A stretch of 64,000 bases of DNA from assembly GCA_905233585.1 (NCBI GenBank), contig CAJOFD010000002.1, forward strand, positions 1 to 64,000, written 5' to 3'. Below the pieces are notes generated by a model. The model made no database searches, was not told the origin of the DNA, and was given only the letters and a program-made list of their open reading frames with translations. Position 1 is the stretch's first letter, and every line of letters begins with the position of its first letter. Position numbers and translations under genes: made by a program. Positions 11,114 to 22,074 of this stretch are shown here, piece by piece. The DNA is from an uncultured Bacteroidales bacterium. Its GTDB lineage: Bacteria > Bacteroidota > Bacteroidia > Bacteroidales > WCHB1-69.

Positions 11114-14100
11114 ATGAGGAAGTTTTTATTTATCAGCATCTTTTGCATACTTTCGTTGTATGCATCGGCACAGACCGCAAGTTTTACTTGGAGTTATACC
11201 ACAGGTACTCCTTGTCTTCCAACTTCGGTTATGTTTACCAACACAAGTACCAATCCATCAGGTATTACGGCTATTAATTGGAATTTTGGTGATGGTACTC
11301 CTGCCTATACTATCGTTGGGACAGATCCTACCCACCCATATACAACGGCAGGCAATTTCACCGTTGTGCTTACTGTTACCTATGGCAGTACAACAAAAAC
11401 TTATTCGGAAACTATTCGTATTGTAGAGCCATTAACGGCAACCTTCACAAAGGCCAATGATACGATATGTCCCGGTGAGACGGTTTCTTTCACTATGGTA
11501 CCGACAGCTCCTGCCACAACAAGTAGTTTTAGCGACTTTTTGTGGAACTTTGGTGATGGCGGTAATAGTAGGGTAGCCAATCCGACATGGCGTTATTTAA
11601 ACGCTGGTAATACCAGAATCAATTATACTGTCGGTTTGACTGTTACAGATATAAATGGTTGTGTTTCAACGTATAGCGAGCCGGATTTTGTATTCGTAAA
11701 AAACAGACCGGAGGTGAATTTCACCGTTGATGATTCTGTTTTTTGTTATAATGCAAGTCAGACAACAGGTACATCAACATTTACCAATTTAACTTCGGTA
11801 ACATCAAATAATACGTATCGGTGGTTTTTTGGAGCAATGTCTAATCCATTGAATACAAGTACTCAAGAAAATCCTACACAAGTATTTCCTCAAGGTAATT
11901 ACGATGTTTCTCTTGTGGCTACATCTACGGAGGGTTGTTCTGATACTTTGACAAAGACCAATTATATCAGAATGGTGAACTTCTCTGTAAAAAGGACTGT
12001 TTCAGATACAATTCTCTGTGAAGTAAACAATGACAATTCAGTTGTTACTTTCCGTGGTATCAATGGTGGTGGAACAACATACCACTGGCTTTTTGGTGAT
12101 GGACACGAAGGGCACTCTTCTGCCGGTCCTATTACTAATCGTTACAGACAAGCAGGTGATTTTACCGTGATTGTTACAGGTACGCATTTGACAGGTTGCA
12201 CTGCTAAAGATACCTTTATGATACATGTTACTGACGACAAACGTCCTTCTGCAGCCACCATTATAGATACCAATATGTGCGATCCTGCAACACCTGTTAT
12301 TTTTAAAAATAGTACACAATATCCTACAACCAATGATTTCGGTATGAAAAATACTTTGTGGTTGTTTGGTGATGGACAATCTGCTACGGGTGATTCTGTC
12401 GCCCATGCTTATGGTAGTTTCGGTGATTATACCATCACTATGGTACATACTACACCCTATGGTTGTACCTTGGATTCTACCTATTATAATGTTCATATAT
12501 TTGCAATGAAAGCGGCCGCTGCCGTAACAGATCCTGCACCACCAGATCCTCCACATGGTTGTGCTCCTCATACAGTAACTTTGGCTAATATACCAGATTC
12601 GTTAAAATCATCTTCTCCAATTACGGATTTTATTTGGCGTTGGAATTATGGTGTTGATAATTCAGATTCAACCAATTCAGGTTCTACAAGTCAAATTCAG
12701 CATACCTATAACGATACGGGTGTTTTTGCTGTCTATATCACATTGATAAACCAACAAGGTTGCCGCTATGATGTACCGGTTGCAACTATTATGGTAGGTT
12801 ATCCTCCATTAAGTGGTTTTGAATATGATTTTATACAAGGTTGTAAATCAGCAGTGGGTTTGCAAGTAAGGGCATACGACTCTTTAGATGCAAATGGAAA
12901 GTTGATAGCCAAAGTTCCAGCCAACAATTGGCAATGGTTAGATGACCAAGGCAATCCATTGGCAACAGGTGATACAACCTCGGTAAGTTTTTCATCTGTA
13001 GGCTATCAGCCGATAACCCTTGCACCTTCGCATAACGGTTGTGTAGGAACAGGACCGCGATATGATTCGGTTTGTTATGTTTGTCCTCCTATTGCAGCTT
13101 TTGATAATCCAAAGAACGATATGGCGGGCAATCCACCTTTGTTTTGTGAATACCCGTACATAGAGTTTGCCAAAAATCAAGATAACGTAATGGGTACAAA
13201 ATATATGTGGTGGTTTGGCGACGGCTCTCGTGGTACAATGTTCGAGCAACATACCGATACATTGACCAAAGACTCCAACGACCCTGTTTTCCAATATCCT
13301 TATGGATTGTTGGATAGTGCCACACACCCTGAACCCAATTATTTATATACCTTAAAAGGTGTTGTAATGGCAACCTTGTGGGCAATGAATGATGACTCTT
13401 TGGATCCGAATAGTCCGACATACAACCGTTGCGGATATTGCGAAGATATGACTACCCAACAAATCAATATTTCTGAAGCCAAAATGAATTTTTCCACCAA
13501 TTTAGGCAAAGAAAATATTTATGTTTGTGAAGGTGATAGTATTCAATTTTGGGATTCAACAGTTTCTACGCAAAATATAAGCATGTGGGGTTTCGGCTTT
13601 ACCAATGCCGGTGATACAGACCCAAGTCATTTGGTTCAACCGTATAATCAATATTTATCGTTGAATCCTTATTACCGTCCTGCGTATAGCATACAGCAAC
13701 CTCGTGGCGGTTATTGGGTAACATTCCCAAAACCAAATACTTATACCGTTCTTATGAGAGATACTTGTGATTTGGGTTGTATCAGATATGATTCTGTTCA
13801 CATAAGAATTTATCCGCGTAGTGTGCCGCAATTTGTTACAAGTCATGACAATGTACATTTTATAGGCAGAGATCAAAATCATGACAATTATTCTATAAGA
13901 GACACCTTGTGTGCAACCACTCCAGATACATTGTATGTTAGAGACCAATCATTTTCTCCATCTCCGTTTGATACCGTATCTATTATCGCATGGAAATGGA
14001 AACTGAACAATAATATAGATACTTCTTCATTGCAAAATCCTATGTTGTTGGATACATTCTATGGTTTGCACACTTTGGAATTGACGGTTACCAATGAATA

Positions 14101-16132
14101 TGGTTGCGATTCTACCGTAGCAGAAGAAGAACGTGTATTGACCAATGTGGTACAAGCCAATTACGCAACACAAGGACAACGCAAAAGATATTGTAACAGG
14201 GAAATCGTTACATTCCAAAATAAATCGAATGTATTACCATTGGCATTTAATACAAATACAATTATGCAATGTACTTGGGATTGGGGTGATGGAACACCAA
14301 CAGAGACACAATATATTACGAATAGTTCAAGGGGTTCTGACTTGTATAAACAACATGTTTATGATTTGCCCAATTTAAGTACAAAGGTGCCTGTAACCTT
14401 GACGGTTGAAATACAAGGTTCTACTTGTAAGGGAGTGTTTGTAGATACGATAGAAGTGAATCGTCCTATTGCAAGTTTTGATGACAACGGACACGTATAT
14501 CCTTGTATAGGTATAGGGCAGAATGTTTCATTCTGGAGTACATCTCAAGGTAATATCGTTAATTATGAATGGATATTTGGAGATTCTGCAAGTGGAAGTG
14601 CCGATACGGCTTTAGGACCGAACATGGATTCTGTTGTTCACTTCTATGCTTCGGCTGGAACTTATGATATTAACTTGGTTGTCATGGACGACTTGGGTTG
14701 TACGGACACGGCAAGTGCAATGGGACATGTTTTCATAGATGGTCCTGCTGGAACATTTACCTATTCACCATTTTCTGGTTGTATCAATCTGCGTGCCGAA
14801 TTTACACCGACAGTAAAGAATGTCGATACCGTTATCATTTCACCTGACGGTGGTTCTCAAATGACATTTACGGGTATGGCTATTAACAATACGCAACGAT
14901 ATACCTATCGTACTCCGGGAACCTATGTTCCGTATTTCTACTTGATAAAATGGACTAATAAGGGTGATGGTACAAAAGAACGTTGTGTTGTACAATGGAA
15001 CGGGAACGATACCATTTGGGCTATTGAAATGATACCCGATTTTGATACAACATCGGTTTATTGTTCGGGTGTGCCAATTACATTTGCTAATACTACGCAA
15101 ATCAATCCGAATTTATTGAGTTTGGATTCGGCCAAATGGGTGTTCTTTAGCGGTGATGACACAACTACTATGATAGACGGACAAAAACAATACGATTCTG
15201 CGGGAATATATCGTGTTTCTATGACTGGATATAGTAAAATGTGTTCCAAATCAAAGAATTATTATATTGAAGTTATTGATATTCCTGATTTGACATTTGT
15301 ACCGGATTCTGCAGGTGCTTGTGATGGTTTGGAAGTTGAAATTAAGATGAATGATTCTACCTATACCGATGTCCAATATGCCCGTATGGTTGATTGGCAG
15401 TGGACATTCAACGACGGCGAACAATTTTCAGGACATCCTATCCGTAGGGAATTTACGCAAACAGGAGATTATGCTTTTGAAGTGGAATTGACCTATACAC
15501 CTAAAAATTGTGTGAGAAAATATACGGACACCATTTCTGTAGCCGCCTACAAATCACCTGTGGCTGCCTTTACCCCAAATCCGACAGAAGCCAATGCAGG
15601 TGAAACATTCTCCTTTACCGATGCTTCAACACCAGGCGATGGACGTTTGGTAAAATGGACTTGGGAGTTTGGCGATGGCGTTCAAGATTCTACAACAGGC
15701 TCGAATGTTAATCATGTTTACAAAAATACTTCGGGATATATTACCGTTACTATGGTGGTAACCGATGAATATGGCTGTAAGAGCAATGCTGAAGAACAAG
15801 TGTTGGTAACAGAAAGTATGGCATTCCCGAATGCATTTACGCCCAATGGAACTTGTGAAGTGTCTCCGTGCCGCTTCTGCCCGATTGAAGATAAGGGATT
15901 CTTTAAAGAATTGAAAATGGAAGTTTACAACAAATGGGGTGCTTTGGTTTGGAAAAATAGTTGTAAAGATCCTGATTGCCCGTCTGTTTCTGGCGAATTT
16001 TGGTGGGATGGCCGCAACAAACAAGGCAATGTCGTTTCTGACGGTGTATATTATTGGGTACTCTATGGTGTGCCATTGTCAGAAACAAATACAATTATCC
16101 TCAACGGTTCTGTTACGATAATGAGTAACTAA
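11114..16132 (+). CDS. Giant PKD-repeat surface protein with T9SS type B sorting domain
   Basis: The product (1672 aa) begins with a signal peptide (MRKFLFISIFCILSLYASAQ). It is built of about a dozen PKD-like beta-sandwich repeats, recognisable by recurring W-x-FGDG motifs (WNFGDGTP, WLFGDGHEG, WWFGDGSRG, WDWGDGTP, WEFGDGVQ). The last ~95 residues are the gliding-motility-associated C-terminal domain: FPNAFTPNGT, then VYNKWGALVW, WWDGRNKQG and SDGVYYWVLYG. That domain directs export by the type IX secretion system and retention at the surface. Length and repeats suggest an adhesin-like or structural surface filament. Many cysteines could form disulfides. No enzymatic domain is visible. Confidence 0.88.
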   Translation: MRKFLFISIFCILSLYASAQTASFTWSYTTGTPCLPTSVMFTNTSTNPSGITAINWNFGDGTPAYTIVGTDPTHPYTTAGNFTVVLTVTYGSTTKTYSETIRIVEPLTATFTKANDTICPGETVSFTMVPTAPATTSSFSDFLWNFGDGGNSRVANPTWRYLNAGNTRINYTVGLTVTDINGCVSTYSEPDFVFVKNRPEVNFTVDDSVFCYNASQTTGTSTFTNLTSVTSNNTYRWFFGAMSNPLNTSTQENPTQVFPQGNYDVSLVATSTEGCSDTLTKTNYIRMVNFSVKRTVSDTILCEVNNDNSVVTFRGINGGGTTYHWLFGDGHEGHSSAGPITNRYRQAGDFTVIVTGTHLTGCTAKDTFMIHVTDDKRPSAATIIDTNMCDPATPVIFKNSTQYPTTNDFGMKNTLWLFGDGQSATGDSVAHAYGSFGDYTITMVHTTPYGCTLDSTYYNVHIFAMKAAAAVTDPAPPDPPHGCAPHTVTLANIPDSLKSSSPITDFIWRWNYGVDNSDSTNSGSTSQIQHTYNDTGVFAVYITLINQQGCRYDVPVATIMVGYPPLSGFEYDFIQGCKSAVGLQVRAYDSLDANGKLIAKVPANNWQWLDDQGNPLATGDTTSVSFSSVGYQPITLAPSHNGCVGTGPRYDSVCYVCPPIAAFDNPKNDMAGNPPLFCEYPYIEFAKNQDNVMGTKYMWWFGDGSRGTMFEQHTDTLTKDSNDPVFQYPYGLLDSATHPEPNYLYTLKGVVMATLWAMNDDSLDPNSPTYNRCGYCEDMTTQQINISEAKMNFSTNLGKENIYVCEGDSIQFWDSTVSTQNISMWGFGFTNAGDTDPSHLVQPYNQYLSLNPYYRPAYSIQQPRGGYWVTFPKPNTYTVLMRDTCDLGCIRYDSVHIRIYPRSVPQFVTSHDNVHFIGRDQNHDNYSIRDTLCATTPDTLYVRDQSFSPSPFDTVSIIAWKWKLNNNIDTSSLQNPMLLDTFYGLHTLELTVTNEYGCDSTVAEEERVLTNVVQANYATQGQRKRYCNREIVTFQNKSNVLPLAFNTNTIMQCTWDWGDGTPTETQYITNSSRGSDLYKQHVYDLPNLSTKVPVTLTVEIQGSTCKGVFVDTIEVNRPIASFDDNGHVYPCIGIGQNVSFWSTSQGNIVNYEWIFGDSASGSADTALGPNMDSVVHFYASAGTYDINLVVMDDLGCTDTASAMGHVFIDGPAGTFTYSPFSGCINLRAEFTPTVKNVDTVIISPDGGSQMTFTGMAINNTQRYTYRTPGTYVPYFYLIKWTNKGDGTKERCVVQWNGNDTIWAIEMIPDFDTTSVYCSGVPITFANTTQINPNLLSLDSAKWVFFSGDDTTTMIDGQKQYDSAGIYRVSMTGYSKMCSKSKNYYIEVIDIPDLTFVPDSAGACDGLEVEIKMNDSTYTDVQYARMVDWQWTFNDGEQFSGHPIRREFTQTGDYAFEVELTYTPKNCVRKYTDTISVAAYKSPVAAFTPNPTEANAGETFSFTDASTPGDGRLVKWTWEFGDGVQDSTTGSNVNHVYKNTSGYITVTMVVTDEYGCKSNAEEQVLVTESMAFPNAFTPNGTCEVSPCRFCPIEDKGFFKELKMEVYNKWGALVWKNSCKDPDCPSVSGEFWWDGRNKQGNVVSDGVYYWVLYGVPLSETNTIILNGSVTIMSN

Positions 16133-16661: not shown

Positions 16662-16865
16662 ATGGCAACATATACAATTACAATCAATGAGCGGACCAAA
16701 CAAGGTAAAAGTCTGCGAGACTATTTGCAAGCACTGGGAATTATAAAAGATGAGAAAAAGAATCCCGAACAAACACTTACATTACATGCTATTGAAGAAG
16801 CGGAAAGTGAAGAATGTGTTGTTTGCGAGGATTTTGAGGATTATCTGAAAAAAGTGCATGTATGA
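16662..16865 (+). CDS. Antitoxin of a YafQ-type toxin-antitoxin pair
   Basis: The product (67 aa) is small and acidic toward the C-terminus (EEAESEECVVCEDFEDYLKK). It is placed as the antitoxin because its stop overlaps the start of a YafQ-family toxin gene (ATGA, 4 bp). The N-terminal TYTITINERTKQGKSLRDYL could be a short DNA-binding segment, but no named antitoxin fold is recognised. Such antitoxins bind and block their toxin and repress their own promoter. Identification rests on gene arrangement and size. Confidence 0.7.
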   Translation: MATYTITINERTKQGKSLRDYLQALGIIKDEKKNPEQTLTLHAIEEAESEECVVCEDFEDYLKKVHV

Positions 16866-17140
16866 GAAAAATTATATTTACATCTCAATATAAAAAAGAT
16901 TTGCATTTGGCGATTAGGCGTAATTTATCTGAAGAAAAATTGAATACGCTTATTAAAATGTTGGCGACAGATACTCCGTTGCCTGCACGAAATAGAGACC
17001 ATGCCTTGTCAGGAAGATTCGTCGGCTATAGAGAGTGTCATATTCAACCTAATTGGTTATTGATTTATAGTAAAGATGATGACCTGCATTTGTTGAAATT
17101 GATTAGAACAGGCTCTCATGCCGATTTGTTTGGCAAATAA
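16862..17140 (+). CDS. YafQ family (RelE superfamily) mRNA interferase toxin
   Basis: The product (92 aa) has the hallmarks of YafQ toxins: an N-terminal FTSQYKKDLHLAIRR helix, a central LPARNRDHALSG segment followed by GYRECHI, an LLIYSKDDD strand, and the C-terminal LIRTGSHADLF that includes the family's catalytic His. YafQ cleaves mRNA on the ribosome when its antitoxin is degraded. The length is normal and all motifs are present, so the toxin is probably functional. The pair sits between two direct repeats, suggesting arrival or duplication as a unit. Confidence 0.88.
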   Translation: MRKIIFTSQYKKDLHLAIRRNLSEEKLNTLIKMLATDTPLPARNRDHALSGRFVGYRECHIQPNWLLIYSKDDDLHLLKLIRTGSHADLFGK

Positions 17141-17387: not shown

Positions 17388-17999
17388 ATGGCAGCAGATT
17401 TAGTTAGCGAATTGAATAGTTTGGATTTTTCCGCTTATATTGGAGGTCCAATGCAGGCCGCAGTAGATGCTCAAAATTCCGCAGCAATGGCTCAAGTGGA
17501 TTTTATTCAAAAGGTTGGATTAGAACCAACAGAATTGGATAACGATAATAATGTGGTAAAAAGTAAAGTTAGAATGGTTGATTTTACATATACCTCTAAT
17601 GATGGAGGAGTTGAAACAACTAAAACATTACAAGTACCTTTTTTAACCATGTTGTCTATTCCAGCATTGCGGATAGATGAAATGACAATTGATTTTAATT
17701 GTAAATTAAATTCAGTTGCAACAAGTCATGAAACTCAAGATGTGAGTGTTGGGGCATCTTTGAATCTTAATGTTTGGAAAGTAAAATTAAATGTAACGGC
17801 AGCATATAAGCAGTCAACAAGCAAATCAGAGCAAGTTGAGCGGACTTATTCTATGAGTGTTCATGTCAAGGTTGTTAATGATGAAATGCCAGCAGGTTTA
17901 GATCGTGTTTTGAATATTTTGGAAAATGAAATCAGAGCAGTATCTGAGGAGGAAGAAGCAAGTTCTGATTCACCTACAAATGCTAATCCAACAGAATAA
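17388..17999 (+). CDS. DUF2589 domain protein
   Basis: The product (203 aa) is recognised as a DUF2589 protein from its N-terminal pattern, a Gly-Gly-Pro after a short helix (YIGGPMQAAVDAQNSAAMAQ) followed by an FIQKVGLE segment. A beta-rich middle (about 55-110, with LQVPFLTMLSIPALRIDEM) and a second beta-rich half (SVGASLNLNVWKVKLNV then YSMSVHVKV) follow. The tail is acidic and Ser-rich. There is no signal peptide or membrane segment, so it is cytoplasmic. The family has no known function. It has its own promoter and a hairpin after it, and precedes a secreted beta-helix protein and two further uncharacterised genes, the second of which (20599) I recall as a common neighbour of DUF2589. 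Confidence 0.75.
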   Translation: MAADLVSELNSLDFSAYIGGPMQAAVDAQNSAAMAQVDFIQKVGLEPTELDNDNNVVKSKVRMVDFTYTSNDGGVETTKTLQVPFLTMLSIPALRIDEMTIDFNCKLNSVATSHETQDVSVGASLNLNVWKVKLNVTAAYKQSTSKSEQVERTYSMSVHVKVVNDEMPAGLDRVLNILENEIRAVSEEEEASSDSPTNANPTE

Positions 18000-18046
18000 T
18001 TACAAATAGGAAATCATTTAGCAAGAGTACATAAAATTGAATATGA

Positions 18047-18076
18047 TAGATAAAACCTTCTTTGAGGTTTTATCTA
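18047..18076 (+). terminator. Hairpin after the DUF2589 gene
   Basis: A perfect 12-bp stem TAGATAAAACCT / AGGTTTTATCTA (18047-18058 and 18065-18076) follows the stop by about 50 bp. No long T run follows, so it may be a weak terminator or an mRNA-stabilising hairpin. Confidence 0.6.
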
Positions 18077-18178
18077 TTTGAATATAAAAAGTTTAAATAA
18101 ATCTTTCAATATTGTTTATATTTTATAGTTTCATATATTAGAAGATTTATAATATTATTTATTTTATTATGATTTAAT

Positions 18179-20530
18179 ATGAAAAAAGGTATATGTTTTC
18201 TACTTACGTTCTGTATGTGTTGTAATATATTTGCTACAACCTATTTTGTTTCTTCTAGTGGAAATAATAATAATGATGGTCTTTCTTGGACTACAGCAAA
18301 ACAAACTATTCAAGCTGCAATAAATATTGCAAGTGTTGGGGATAGTGTTTTTGTCGCAGTAGGAAATTATGCTGGTTTTCAAGCTGTAAATGGTGTTCAT
18401 GTGTTTGGTGGATTTGTCGGAACAGAATTATACTTATATGAAAGACAAAGTCTTACTTATGGTTATTTGTCCAATGGATTATGTACAAAAATAGATCAAA
18501 CGCGTAACATGTATATAAATGGATATAAAGACATCAAAATATATGTTCCTTATTCCCAATCTATCAATACATGTATAGATGGTTTTGTGTTATCGGGGAG
18601 TAATCGTTCTTACTACTCTATTTGTTTAAGTGGTCATTGTAGCCTTAAAAATTGTTATATATCTGAAAATCCTACTGAACATTATGTAATTTTATTTACC
18701 AATACCAAGGGCAATAATTTTTCATTTGAAAATATTCAATTTGAAAAATGTAATGGTTATGCTTTATATGCTCAGAGTGTAGGGACATTGCAAGTGAGCA
18801 ATTGTATATTTAAGGATAATGAAAACAGGGCGATTATTGCTTCTCATGGTACAGACCCATCAGTTTCTACAACAATAGTTAATATCACAAATTGTTCGTT
18901 TATAAATAATAAAAACAATAGTTCTATTATATCATGTGCTACAGGTGTGATGAATATTACGAATAGTAGGATTATGAATAATATGATTTTAGGACAAGAA
19001 ACACCAAGATATACAACACGTCTTATCAATGTTTCTTCTCAAAGTATCTTAAGAATGAGAAATTGTTTACTGGTTAATAATTCTGTGAAAAACAATTATA
19101 CAACAAATAATAATAATGCAGGTGTATGTATTATTTTTGATACAAATGCTGCTAATCTTATACTACAGAATTGTACATTTGCAAATAATAAATTAGAGCA
19201 TGTTAATGCTAATACAAAACTTGCAGGTGTTGCCTACATAAATACAAATAATCTAACATATTATAATAATATATATTACGATACAACCAGTTGTTATCAT
19301 ACTGCTAATTATACTTTTTATAATGCGAGAAAGTTAAAAAGTTTTTCAGGGGTAGGCAATATTGTATTGGATACGCTAAACAATGGTCATGATAGTACAA
19401 AAAACTATGTGCGTTTTGTAAGACCTACTACTTTTGCAGGTGCCGCTACTAATGCTGCGGATTCCTTAGCTATTTTTCAGGCAGATTGGCATTTGTCGGC
19501 AGGCTCTGCCTGTATAGATGCCGGCTACCCCTACTATAATACACTTACTTATCAAGATTCTACAGATTTGGACGGTAATCATCGTGTGTCGGGAGGTCGG
19601 GTGGATATGGGTGCCTACGAGTATCCGCAGGCAGATGCACCCCAGCAAATAGTTTGGAATCAAAATTTGCAAGGGCATCTCAGCGAGGGCTGGTTGCTTA
19701 GCGAGGCAAGTGCTACAAGCGGTCTGCCTTTGTCATACACGAGCAGCAATCCGGGAGTGGCTACCATATCGGGGGATACTTTTGTATTTCATGCCGTTGG
19801 CAAAACCACCATCACCGCCACACAATGGGGCGATAGCGTGTATATGCCCGCAACCCCCTTGGCTAAACTGCTCACTGTCTATGGAGATACTATTTTTGAG
19901 CAAGATACGGTAAAATATTACGATACCGTTTGGCATAACGATACAATATGGCATCATGATACCATTCGCACGCAAATAAACGATACCGTTTGGTACAATG
20001 ATACGATAAGAACACAAGTATATGACACCTTGTGGCACAACGATACCTTGTGGGTGAACGATACCTTGTGGTATAAGGATACGCTGTGGTATCATGATAC
20101 GACAAGAACACATATATACGATACCATTTGGCACAATGACACGACATGGTACAACGATACTATTCGTACGTATATAAACGACACGCTTTGGCATAATGAT
20201 ACCCTATGGACCCGTTTGTATGATACGATACCGATATACGATACCGTTACTATTTATGTGTATGATACGATAACGGTGTATGATACTGTTCGTGTAAATA
20301 TACAGGATATAGATATTTCCGTAGTGCCGTGGCAAATAACGCAAGACGGGGAGAGCATTTATGTCAGCGGAGCCGAAGGCGAATCGGTGAGGGTTTACGA
20401 TGTAACGGGTCGCTGTCTGCATGTGGAGGAAAGGGCGGTAGGCATATTGCGTTTCCGCATGTATGCATCAGGGGTTTATCTGGTGCAAATAGGCAACAAT
20501 CCCGCCCAAAAGGTGGTGCTGACAAGATGA
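18179..20530 (+). CDS. Secreted beta-helix protein with Asp-Thr repeat stalk and T9SS type A domain
   Basis: The product (783 aa) has a signal peptide (residues 1-19), then a right-handed parallel beta-helix (about 25-475) of the type seen in polysaccharide-binding or -cleaving surface proteins. A BIG2-like Ig segment follows (about 490-570: SYTSSNPGVATISG). Residues about 574-707 are a repetitive stalk of 6- and 8-residue units based on DT-[IVL]-W-[HY]-N. The last ~75 residues form the type A sorting domain (VRVYDVTGRCLHVEE, then GVYLVQIGN). No catalytic residues can be assigned, so it may be adhesive. It lies inside the DUF2589 gene group, which is otherwise cytoplasmic. Confidence 0.8.
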   Translation: MKKGICFLLTFCMCCNIFATTYFVSSSGNNNNDGLSWTTAKQTIQAAINIASVGDSVFVAVGNYAGFQAVNGVHVFGGFVGTELYLYERQSLTYGYLSNGLCTKIDQTRNMYINGYKDIKIYVPYSQSINTCIDGFVLSGSNRSYYSICLSGHCSLKNCYISENPTEHYVILFTNTKGNNFSFENIQFEKCNGYALYAQSVGTLQVSNCIFKDNENRAIIASHGTDPSVSTTIVNITNCSFINNKNNSSIISCATGVMNITNSRIMNNMILGQETPRYTTRLINVSSQSILRMRNCLLVNNSVKNNYTTNNNNAGVCIIFDTNAANLILQNCTFANNKLEHVNANTKLAGVAYINTNNLTYYNNIYYDTTSCYHTANYTFYNARKLKSFSGVGNIVLDTLNNGHDSTKNYVRFVRPTTFAGAATNAADSLAIFQADWHLSAGSACIDAGYPYYNTLTYQDSTDLDGNHRVSGGRVDMGAYEYPQADAPQQIVWNQNLQGHLSEGWLLSEASATSGLPLSYTSSNPGVATISGDTFVFHAVGKTTITATQWGDSVYMPATPLAKLLTVYGDTIFEQDTVKYYDTVWHNDTIWHHDTIRTQINDTVWYNDTIRTQVYDTLWHNDTLWVNDTLWYKDTLWYHDTTRTHIYDTIWHNDTTWYNDTIRTYINDTLWHNDTLWTRLYDTIPIYDTVTIYVYDTITVYDTVRVNIQDIDISVVPWQITQDGESIYVSGAEGESVRVYDVTGRCLHVEERAVGILRFRMYASGVYLVQIGNNPAQKVVLTR
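19897..20300 (+). repeat. Tandem 18/24-nt repeats encoding Asp-Thr stalk
   Basis: About nineteen imperfect units, each beginning GATAC(C/G/A) and coding DT-x-W-x-N (18 nt) or DT-x-R-T-x-x-x (24 nt), lie head to tail in frame. Variation is mostly at third positions, so the protein repeat is kept while the DNA has diverged. Unit number could change by recombination without breaking the frame. Confidence 0.8.
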
Positions 20531-20598
20531 TACAACTCAGATACATTTAGAACAGAAGGAATTTATAAATAGAGAAAAAAACAAAAATCAAACAATAA

Positions 20599-21351
20599 AT
20601 GATTTCATTGGAAAATTATCTTAACGGATTGGTGTCAAGCATAGCAGAAGGCAGAGCCTCAGCCGATGCCCTTTCCGCCAGAATAGCCGAAGCGTACAAG
20701 AATGATGAGTTGTTGCGGAATTTTTCTGTTCCCCGAATGAAAATCGGGAACATCAATATGTCCGTTCCAGTGGCTTTTGCAGGCGAAAATACAGGTGCAA
20801 CGACAACATTAAGTCTTATCAAACAACTTGATTTTAATGCTATAGTAGAAACACTCACTTCAACTATTTGTGAGTGCTATTTTTTAACACAGAGAATGCT
20901 GTCTGCCAATAATGGCAATGACAATGAGCGTCTTGACCGTTCATTGCAATATGTTTTGCAAATAGCGGTGAATCAATTGTACAATGAGTTGTTTCAATTG
21001 GGCGACCCCTTAGACCCGACTGATGCCGATACTGCCTTGCAGACTAAAGCAGAAGAAATCTGCAATGCATTTTATGACAATTTGCCTTCCAATGAACCTG
21101 TATTCGCTACCGCTATTGACTTGGGTAATGAGGCGGCACTCTATCGTGTAAAATATGACTTGGAACGTCTTTTTATTCTTCAAAGTGTGTCCAATCAAGG
21201 TATTATGCTTAAAGCAACGGCACAGGAACTGAGTGAGGTAAACAGTGATGCTATTTTCCATATAGACATTGTCATGAAAGAAGACGGTATGCAATGGGCA
21301 TTTTCTCGGGACAATGAAGGTAATATCAACGCAAATTTAGTGCCTGAATAG
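20599..21351 (+). CDS. Uncharacterised protein, presumed partner of DUF2589
   Basis: The product (250 aa) is cytoplasmic (no signal peptide or hydrophobic segment). The N-terminus is amphipathic helical (MISLENYLNGLVSSIAEGR), followed by FSVPRMKIGNINMSVPVAF, which I recall as typical of proteins encoded beside DUF2589. A mostly helical middle (about 75-210) leads to a C-terminal beta segment (AIFHIDIVMKEDGMQWAFS). It shares a general plan with the DUF2589 protein upstream: helix, short beta segment, then a closing beta region. The next gene starts 4 bp after its stop, indicating an operon. Function is unknown. A structure-based comparison would be needed to place it. Confidence 0.55.
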   Translation: MISLENYLNGLVSSIAEGRASADALSARIAEAYKNDELLRNFSVPRMKIGNINMSVPVAFAGENTGATTTLSLIKQLDFNAIVETLTSTICECYFLTQRMLSANNGNDNERLDRSLQYVLQIAVNQLYNELFQLGDPLDPTDADTALQTKAEEICNAFYDNLPSNEPVFATAIDLGNEAALYRVKYDLERLFILQSVSNQGIMLKATAQELSEVNSDAIFHIDIVMKEDGMQWAFSRDNEGNINANLVPE

Positions 21352-21355
21352 TCTT

Positions 21356-21901
21356 ATGAAAGGTTCTACATTGGATATTGTTCAAGGCTTGTTTGACAAG
21401 TTGCAGCAGGTACCTGACAGGGTTTCCGCTTTTGAACGTCGCGATGGAAACTCGGCAATGCTTTGGCTGCAATGGTTGTCCGAATCAGAAAAAATGCTCA
21501 AAGACCATGGCTTTGCCGAATGTGCAGCCTTGGCGGGCATAAGGGCAGATGTGTTGGTGCAATTGTCAGAAAAACAAGTGCGGAAAGAGAAACTGATAGC
21601 GGTGCTTAAAACCGTGAATGCGGCTCAAGCGGTATTGTTGGAAAAATACAATACCTTGTCGGAAAAGGTTGAAAATGTGCGTACATTTCTCAGGCAGGTA
21701 CTTATGCAGATAAACGATGCCGGTATGCTGGAATATGATGACAATACGGATTTTACCTCTTTTGTCAATTTCTTGTTTCAACAAATGAACAGCAATGCAC
21801 AATTGTCGGGGAGTATTCATAATGCTGTTGCCACGCTCGGCAAAAACGATGTGTTAAGACTTATTGCCGAAACGCTGACACAAATAAAATCAGAAATATA
21901 A
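21356..21901 (+). CDS. Uncharacterised helical protein in the DUF2589 gene group
   Basis: The product (181 aa) is predicted to be almost wholly helical and cytoplasmic, with Leu/Ala/Glu/Lys-rich stretches (for example residues 70-120) that could form a coiled coil. No known domain is recognised. It starts 4 bp after the 250-residue partner gene and ends before a strong terminator, so the two are one transcript. Conserved position with the partner is the only clue to a shared role. Lack of cysteine-pairs or catalytic motifs argues for a structural or binding protein. Confidence 0.5.
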   Translation: MKGSTLDIVQGLFDKLQQVPDRVSAFERRDGNSAMLWLQWLSESEKMLKDHGFAECAALAGIRADVLVQLSEKQVRKEKLIAVLKTVNAAQAVLLEKYNTLSEKVENVRTFLRQVLMQINDAGMLEYDDNTDFTSFVNFLFQQMNSNAQLSGSIHNAVATLGKNDVLRLIAETLTQIKSEI

Positions 21902-21934: not shown

Positions 21935-21960
21935 AGAGCCGATGTATTTCGGCTCTTTTT
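21935..21960 (+). terminator. Terminator closing the DUF2589 gene group
   Basis: An 8-bp stem AGAGCCGA / TCGGCTCT (21935-21942 and 21949-21956) runs into five T, 34 bp after the stop. Confidence 0.8.
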
Positions 21961-22074
21961 GTCGGTAGTATTCCCAAAAGTGTATAAAGATAATATTTGC
22001 AAATATATATTGGTTTGTGAATTAAAAAAATATATAATTTTTCTTAAAAACGGTATTGATATAGTTTTTTTTGC

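Follow-up and report, generated by a model that had tools for sequence, protein, structure and literature searches.

Among described systems, the release of large proteins by programmed lysis comes close to what we describe here. In Yersinia, Tc toxins leave the cell by type 10 secretion (PMC10847048), and the release of YenTc by a holin-endolysin-spanin cassette is an example of this lysis (PMC10847048, PMC10847046). Similarly, wall hydrolases devoid of leader peptides lie beside the gene cluster of the domain family DUF2589 in several lineages, and one cluster is accompanied by a Tc-toxin B-like gene. However, the three genes that form the core of these clusters encode no holin-like membrane helices, no hydrolase is found at the locus studied here, and no sequence or fold link connects the two systems. 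Because of the missing holin and, at this locus, the missing hydrolase, we do not file the triad as a type 10 system. A second relative is the cargo of type IX secretion (T9SS), since a leader, repeats and a C-terminal tail of the kind seen in such cargo are found in P783, the surface protein of the locus, and in its relatives. Yet these proteins are encoded with a cytoplasmic triad and the tail of P783 scores below the curated cut-off; to our knowledge, the triad DUF2589-P250-P181 is not part of any described T9SS. Finally, Pfam DUF2589 (PF11655) is an entry with no function, partners or system. The 203-aa protein of the locus belongs to it, but its partners P250 and P181 are absent from every profile library searched. 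In the open-access library searched, DUF2589 is named by one paper, in passing, and accession-style names give no match.

The locus lies within a window of 64,000 nucleotides (the whole stretch of DNA that was analysed) and is composed as follows:

17388..17999, plus strand: DUF2589 protein, 203 aa (PF11655 match at 1.9e-30; AlphaFold model at pLDDT 68.6)
18045..18078, plus strand: 15-bp perfect RNA hairpin directly 3' of DUF2589 (-16.6 kcal/mol, z -5.7)
18179..20530, plus strand: P783, a secreted beta-helix protein with a choice-of-anchor Q region, an Asp-Thr stalk and a T9SS-type tail
20599..21351, plus strand: P250, 250 aa, with an N-terminal helix, a strand, a helical insert and C-terminal strands (family A2; AlphaFold pLDDT 75.3)
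21356..21901, plus strand: P181, 181 aa, helical according to the original prediction (family A3)
21935..21962, plus strand: intrinsic-terminator-like hairpin at the end of the set, after P181

All four reading frames are thus found where the original prediction had placed them, in one rightward block, with 4 bp between P250 and P181 and with P783 inserted between DUF2589 and P250. P783 shows the features of a surface protein: it has a Beta_helix match (1.1e-6), a hydrophobic leader and an Asp-Thr stalk, its T9SS tail being sub-threshold. The hairpin at 18045-18078, which stands between DUF2589 and P783, is a possible attenuator or terminator candidate that comes without a strong T tract. DUF2589 is present as a single copy in the 2.28-Mb genome. 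Just upstream of the set (16663-17140), a 67-aa ORF overlaps a gene for a YafQ-family toxin (PF15738, 8.4e-31), likely forming a type II toxin-antitoxin pair. On sequence reading alone, a gene upstream of the set (11114-16132) encodes a protein of 1672 aa that has PKD-like repeats and ends in a C-terminal region of gliding/T9SS type, and aminotransferase-like and mechanosensitive-channel-like proteins are encoded downstream of the set.

The assignment of the first protein is clear: it matches PF11655 with 106.7 bits (E 1.9e-30) over profile positions 6-153 of 154, the curated cut-off being 23 bits. For P250 and P181, on the other hand, Pfam, NCBIfam, PADLOC and PHROG contain no model that scores above threshold, and the match of P181 to PADLOC LmuB (E 0.0099) is at chance level. 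The three small proteins had been said to have no known role, and this holds, with no recorded function for PF11655 and no library matches for the other two. Neither do they turn out to be known phage or housekeeping families in Pfam, NCBIfam, PHROG and the phage and viral collections. In fact, we rejected DUF2589 as a phage family, since scans of phage and viral collections yielded just two IMG/VR contigs and, from the phage records, an unverified scaffold of 4 kb. The scaffold, a 'Bacteriophage sp.' record (L077, MT839761.1), carries DUF2589-P250-DUF2589 and a muramidase, and its phage label looks doubtful because Bacteroidales genomes carry the identical layout. In one IMG/VR contig (L148), about 1-2 kb separate an M15-patatin-DUF2589 block from genes that read as phage-tail-like, and integrase-like genes are found near two further clusters (L062 and L149).

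DUF2589, P250 and P181 are inherited together and keep a fixed order. Across 296 Bacteroidota genomes, DUF2589 is patchily distributed (19/296), P250 is found in 12 and P181 in 11, and the three sets are nested: every genome with P181 has P250, and every genome with P250 has DUF2589. The chance of such nesting is about 1e-15 if genomes are taken as independent, a figure that shared descent makes an overstatement. P250 adjoins DUF2589 and P181 adjoins P250 in Chryseobacterium, Balneolia, Bacteroidales and other Bacteroidota, and an Ignavibacteria contig stops inside P250. The gaps between the genes of the full triads compared are short, -8 to 102 bp for DUF2589-P250 and -58 to 22 bp for P250-P181, some negative values reflecting the choice of start codon by a simple ORF caller. 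Two loci depart from this: L066 has an additional, interleaved DUF2589, and in the window 2599 bp separate DUF2589 from P250. The original prediction that DUF2589 and the 250-residue type occur side by side in other bacteria, as a conserved unit, is therefore borne out, and the unit extends to P181. One genome (G076) is the sole carrier of P250 that lacks P181; it has DUF2589-P250-DUF2589, a layout also seen in L077, L132, L136 and L149, so that P181 looks like a replaceable third member. A known domain family proves to be the core of a conserved unit that is apparently undescribed.

Could the members of this unit be related to each other? The original prediction proposed that DUF2589 and P250 share a helix-then-beta plan, and the AlphaFold models agree with it. 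In DUF2589 a long N-terminal helix (residues 14-44) is followed by strands and a C-terminal helix (pLDDT 68.6, poor at residues 111-149); in P250 an N-terminal helix (residues 4-35) is followed by a strand, the helical insert and C-terminal strands (pLDDT 75.3). Profile-profile alignment with hhalign gives E 0.0018 at a probability of 15%, and E 0.011 at 3.8% with another set of P250 sequences, which suggests that the two may be distant relatives. No homology was found between DUF2589 and P181. Short DUF2589-type proteins, considered as a bridge to P250, match DUF2589 (E 4.5e-16) and not P250. A PDB sequence search with all three family profiles gave no usable match, and Foldseek with VIA-align found nothing at E<=0.001 for the DUF2589 and P250 models (best VIA Z 3.0), nor any match to a pore-protein fold; given models of middling confidence, this null is uninformative either way. 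MscS and 5-HT3 rows in the fold comparison were dismissed at TM 0.2 or less. The three families show no clear membrane helix by hydropathy: the best 19-residue medians are 1.32, 0.92 and 1.20 for DUF2589, P250 and P181, and only 2/31, 2/22 and 0/19 members, respectively, lie just above 1.6. Around residues 97-110 and 113-137, DUF2589 is strongly amphipathic in the beta conformation, which is compatible with a membrane-entering hairpin and equally with an ordinary beta sandwich.

What accompanies the triad differs from lineage to lineage. Secreted proteins and lytic enzymes replace one another beside it, and the enzymes mostly carry no export signals. In Chryseobacterium-type loci the order M15 peptidase, patatin, DUF2589 is kept in all 16 of the 16 in which that side is readable, while the outer flanks vary. 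An N-acetylmuramidase lies near DUF2589 in L077, L132, L136 and L075, the last of these a deltaproteobacterial plasmid, and it is the sole such enzyme of genomes G689 and G620. Four other DUF2589 genomes have their muramidases elsewhere, so the adjacency is not obligatory. By a hand estimate (8 muramidases, neighbourhood length over genome length), fewer than 0.1 adjacencies are expected by chance and 3 are seen, those of G689 and G620 probably being one event. A CHAP enzyme follows in L060, as does a subtilase in L054 (with a homologous-looking protein at the equivalent place in L063); an M15_3 peptidase is found in L131 and a trypsin-like protein in L055; in L067 a TcB-like protein is encoded 233 bp behind the triad. 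Like phage endolysins, nearly all of these enzymes are devoid of a hydrophobic leader at the N-terminus, whereas the T9SS-type partners of Bacteroidales have one. Hydrolase relatives occur near the clusters and in none of 234 control genes further out, a weak control because the queries were drawn from the near set. LytTR DNA-binding proteins account for 6 of 129 genes near clusters, two in one locus and three from related clusters, and do not belong to the families that are matched at least twice among 130 control genes; these regulators, near L128, L131, L132, L136 and L149, lie upstream by coordinates. No wall hydrolase was recognized among the neighbours of the window's set or in the triads L061, L059 and L048, and several triads have ordinary neighbours alone. 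LemA- and MscS-type neighbours were taken as ordinary.

The surface protein of the window seems to belong to this series of neighbours. P783 matches Beta_helix (1.1e-6) and choice-of-anchor Q (8.3e-9) and reaches 18.3 bits against the T9SS C-terminal sorting domain TIGR04183, below its cut-off of 23; relatives in L071 and L147 have a T9SS C-terminal domain above the Pfam cut-off. Its hydrophobic N-terminal stretch starts at residue 5 (mean Kyte-Doolittle 2.64) and reads by hydropathy as a Sec-type leader, and the Asp-Thr stalk can be read from the sequence. Its genome holds no second full-length copy. In four other Bacteroidales loci, orthologues of P783 or other secreted proteins begin 13-133 bp after P181: an orthologue at 34 bp in a goat-rumen Bacteroidales genome (L144/L051), a relative at 26 bp in L071, another member of the window's family, and fn3-type secreted proteins of different architecture at 13 bp in L147 and 133 bp in L133. 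In L047, P181 is followed by a truncated ORF whose start resembles a leader. Thus, the P783-type association is recurrent in Bacteroidales. P783 lies between DUF2589 and P250 in the window only, which looks like a local rearrangement that displaced it from its usual place after P181. Of the functional link that the original prediction drew to the surface protein, the adjacency is upheld by these four loci, while the position proves specific to the window and the link itself remains conjectural. Since the position is genome-specific and enzymes stand beside the triad elsewhere, P783 seems to be one among several partners that can replace each other.

Because the triad adjoins interchangeable wall-, membrane- or protein-cutting enzymes or, in relatives of the bacterium studied here, a large secreted protein, the three genes probably serve one unrecognized job at the cell envelope. 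To explain these results, we tentatively favor, ahead of the alternatives below though short of an even chance, a cytoplasmic multi-subunit module for envelope permeabilization or release with an exchangeable effector. DUF2589, P250 and P181 would form a cytoplasmic hetero-oligomer that would act, under regulation, on the cell's own inner membrane or envelope and let the partner protein reach the wall or leave the cell. Such use would be analogous to that of a holin-endolysin (type 10) cassette, but with unrelated soluble beta-rich proteins as building blocks. We infer oligomerization, membrane action and release from the nested co-occurrence, the fixed order and spacing, the several unrelated types of wall-lytic enzymes and their missing leaders, and also from the TcB-like gene in L067, the upstream LytTR regulators and the amphipathicity of DUF2589 at residues 97-137. 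Against this release model stand the window, L061, L059 and L048 with no wall hydrolase, the T9SS-type partners with leaders of their own, the lack of a membrane helix or a pore-fold match, and the reported presence of DUF2589 in Archaeoglobus, an archaeon without bacterial peptidoglycan. Moreover, many loci share descent, so there are fewer independent events than apparent. In the window's lineage, where the partner brings secretion signals of its own, the module would not serve export as such but help with passage through the wall or with timing, and this is the weakest step of the model.

The triad could also have an unrelated function, such as a cytoplasmic structural or stress role, the enzymes and the surface protein being passengers. 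We rank this next, as a doubtful explanation: neighbours vary by lineage, several triads have ordinary ones alone, the integrase-like and phage-tail-like genes near L062, L149 and L148 would fit, and DUF2589 has been reported in the archaeon Archaeoglobus (PMC3949148). However, passengers would hardly account for the recurrence of unrelated wall-enzyme types, for M15-patatin being kept in 16/16 Chryseobacterium-type loci or for a muramidase adjacency that is also found on a deltaproteobacterial plasmid. Somewhat unlikelier, and third in our ranking, is a suicide (abortive infection) defence that senses phage or damage and unleashes a patatin, a protease or a wall hydrolase. Leaderless patatin, subtilase and trypsin-like proteins resemble the effectors of known suicide systems, and a patchy distribution (19/296) would be in keeping with it. 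Yet the four window proteins have no PADLOC match, although an undescribed system would be absent from that library, no recognized sensor or nucleotide-signalling gene is present, and T9SS-type partners are ill-suited as suicide effectors. Last, and unlikely, comes a cytoplasmic unit that would assemble, chaperone or regulate a large surface or secreted protein during its production or display. The differently built secreted proteins directly after P181 in L144, L071, L147 and L133, and P783 inside the window's set, speak for it; against it, loci from beyond the Bacteroidales have leaderless enzymes or housekeeping genes as neighbours and no surface proteins.

DUF2589, formerly a bare domain name, now stands for a defined set of three genes whose partner rule can be tested: the core is shared, and the envelope enzyme or surface protein beside it changes with the lineage. 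If the core opens or prepares the envelope, as in the release model, it would provide a holin-independent route for large proteins in gut, rumen and environmental Bacteroidota. More speculatively, and improbably in our own estimate, DUF2589 and P250 could have diverged within a single superfamily of beta-rich proteins whose members assemble into a soluble-to-membrane device with no kinship to holins or secretins; such a device would be the shared core of a widespread envelope-opening system of bacteria with exchangeable effectors.

Two minor observations concern the partners. A family of 247-250 aa follows DUF2589 clusters in L139 (7253-7996), L142, L143 and L138 and is reminiscent of lysozyme-like enzymes in two motifs, MTESLGT and AATYNAG. 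A lytic transglycosylase or amidase was considered for the 247-aa and 177-aa neighbours (L139, L129), which gave no Pfam or PDB match; being a motif impression alone, this reading is not counted as evidence. As for P783, comparison with its L144 orthologue gives 62/95 identical residues at the leader end and 77/96 in the region before the stalk, the beta-helix middle being less conserved (about 35-55%). The GC contents of the two halves of its gene are 0.290 and 0.457. Together, this split and the least-conserved middle look as if passenger and stalk had different histories.
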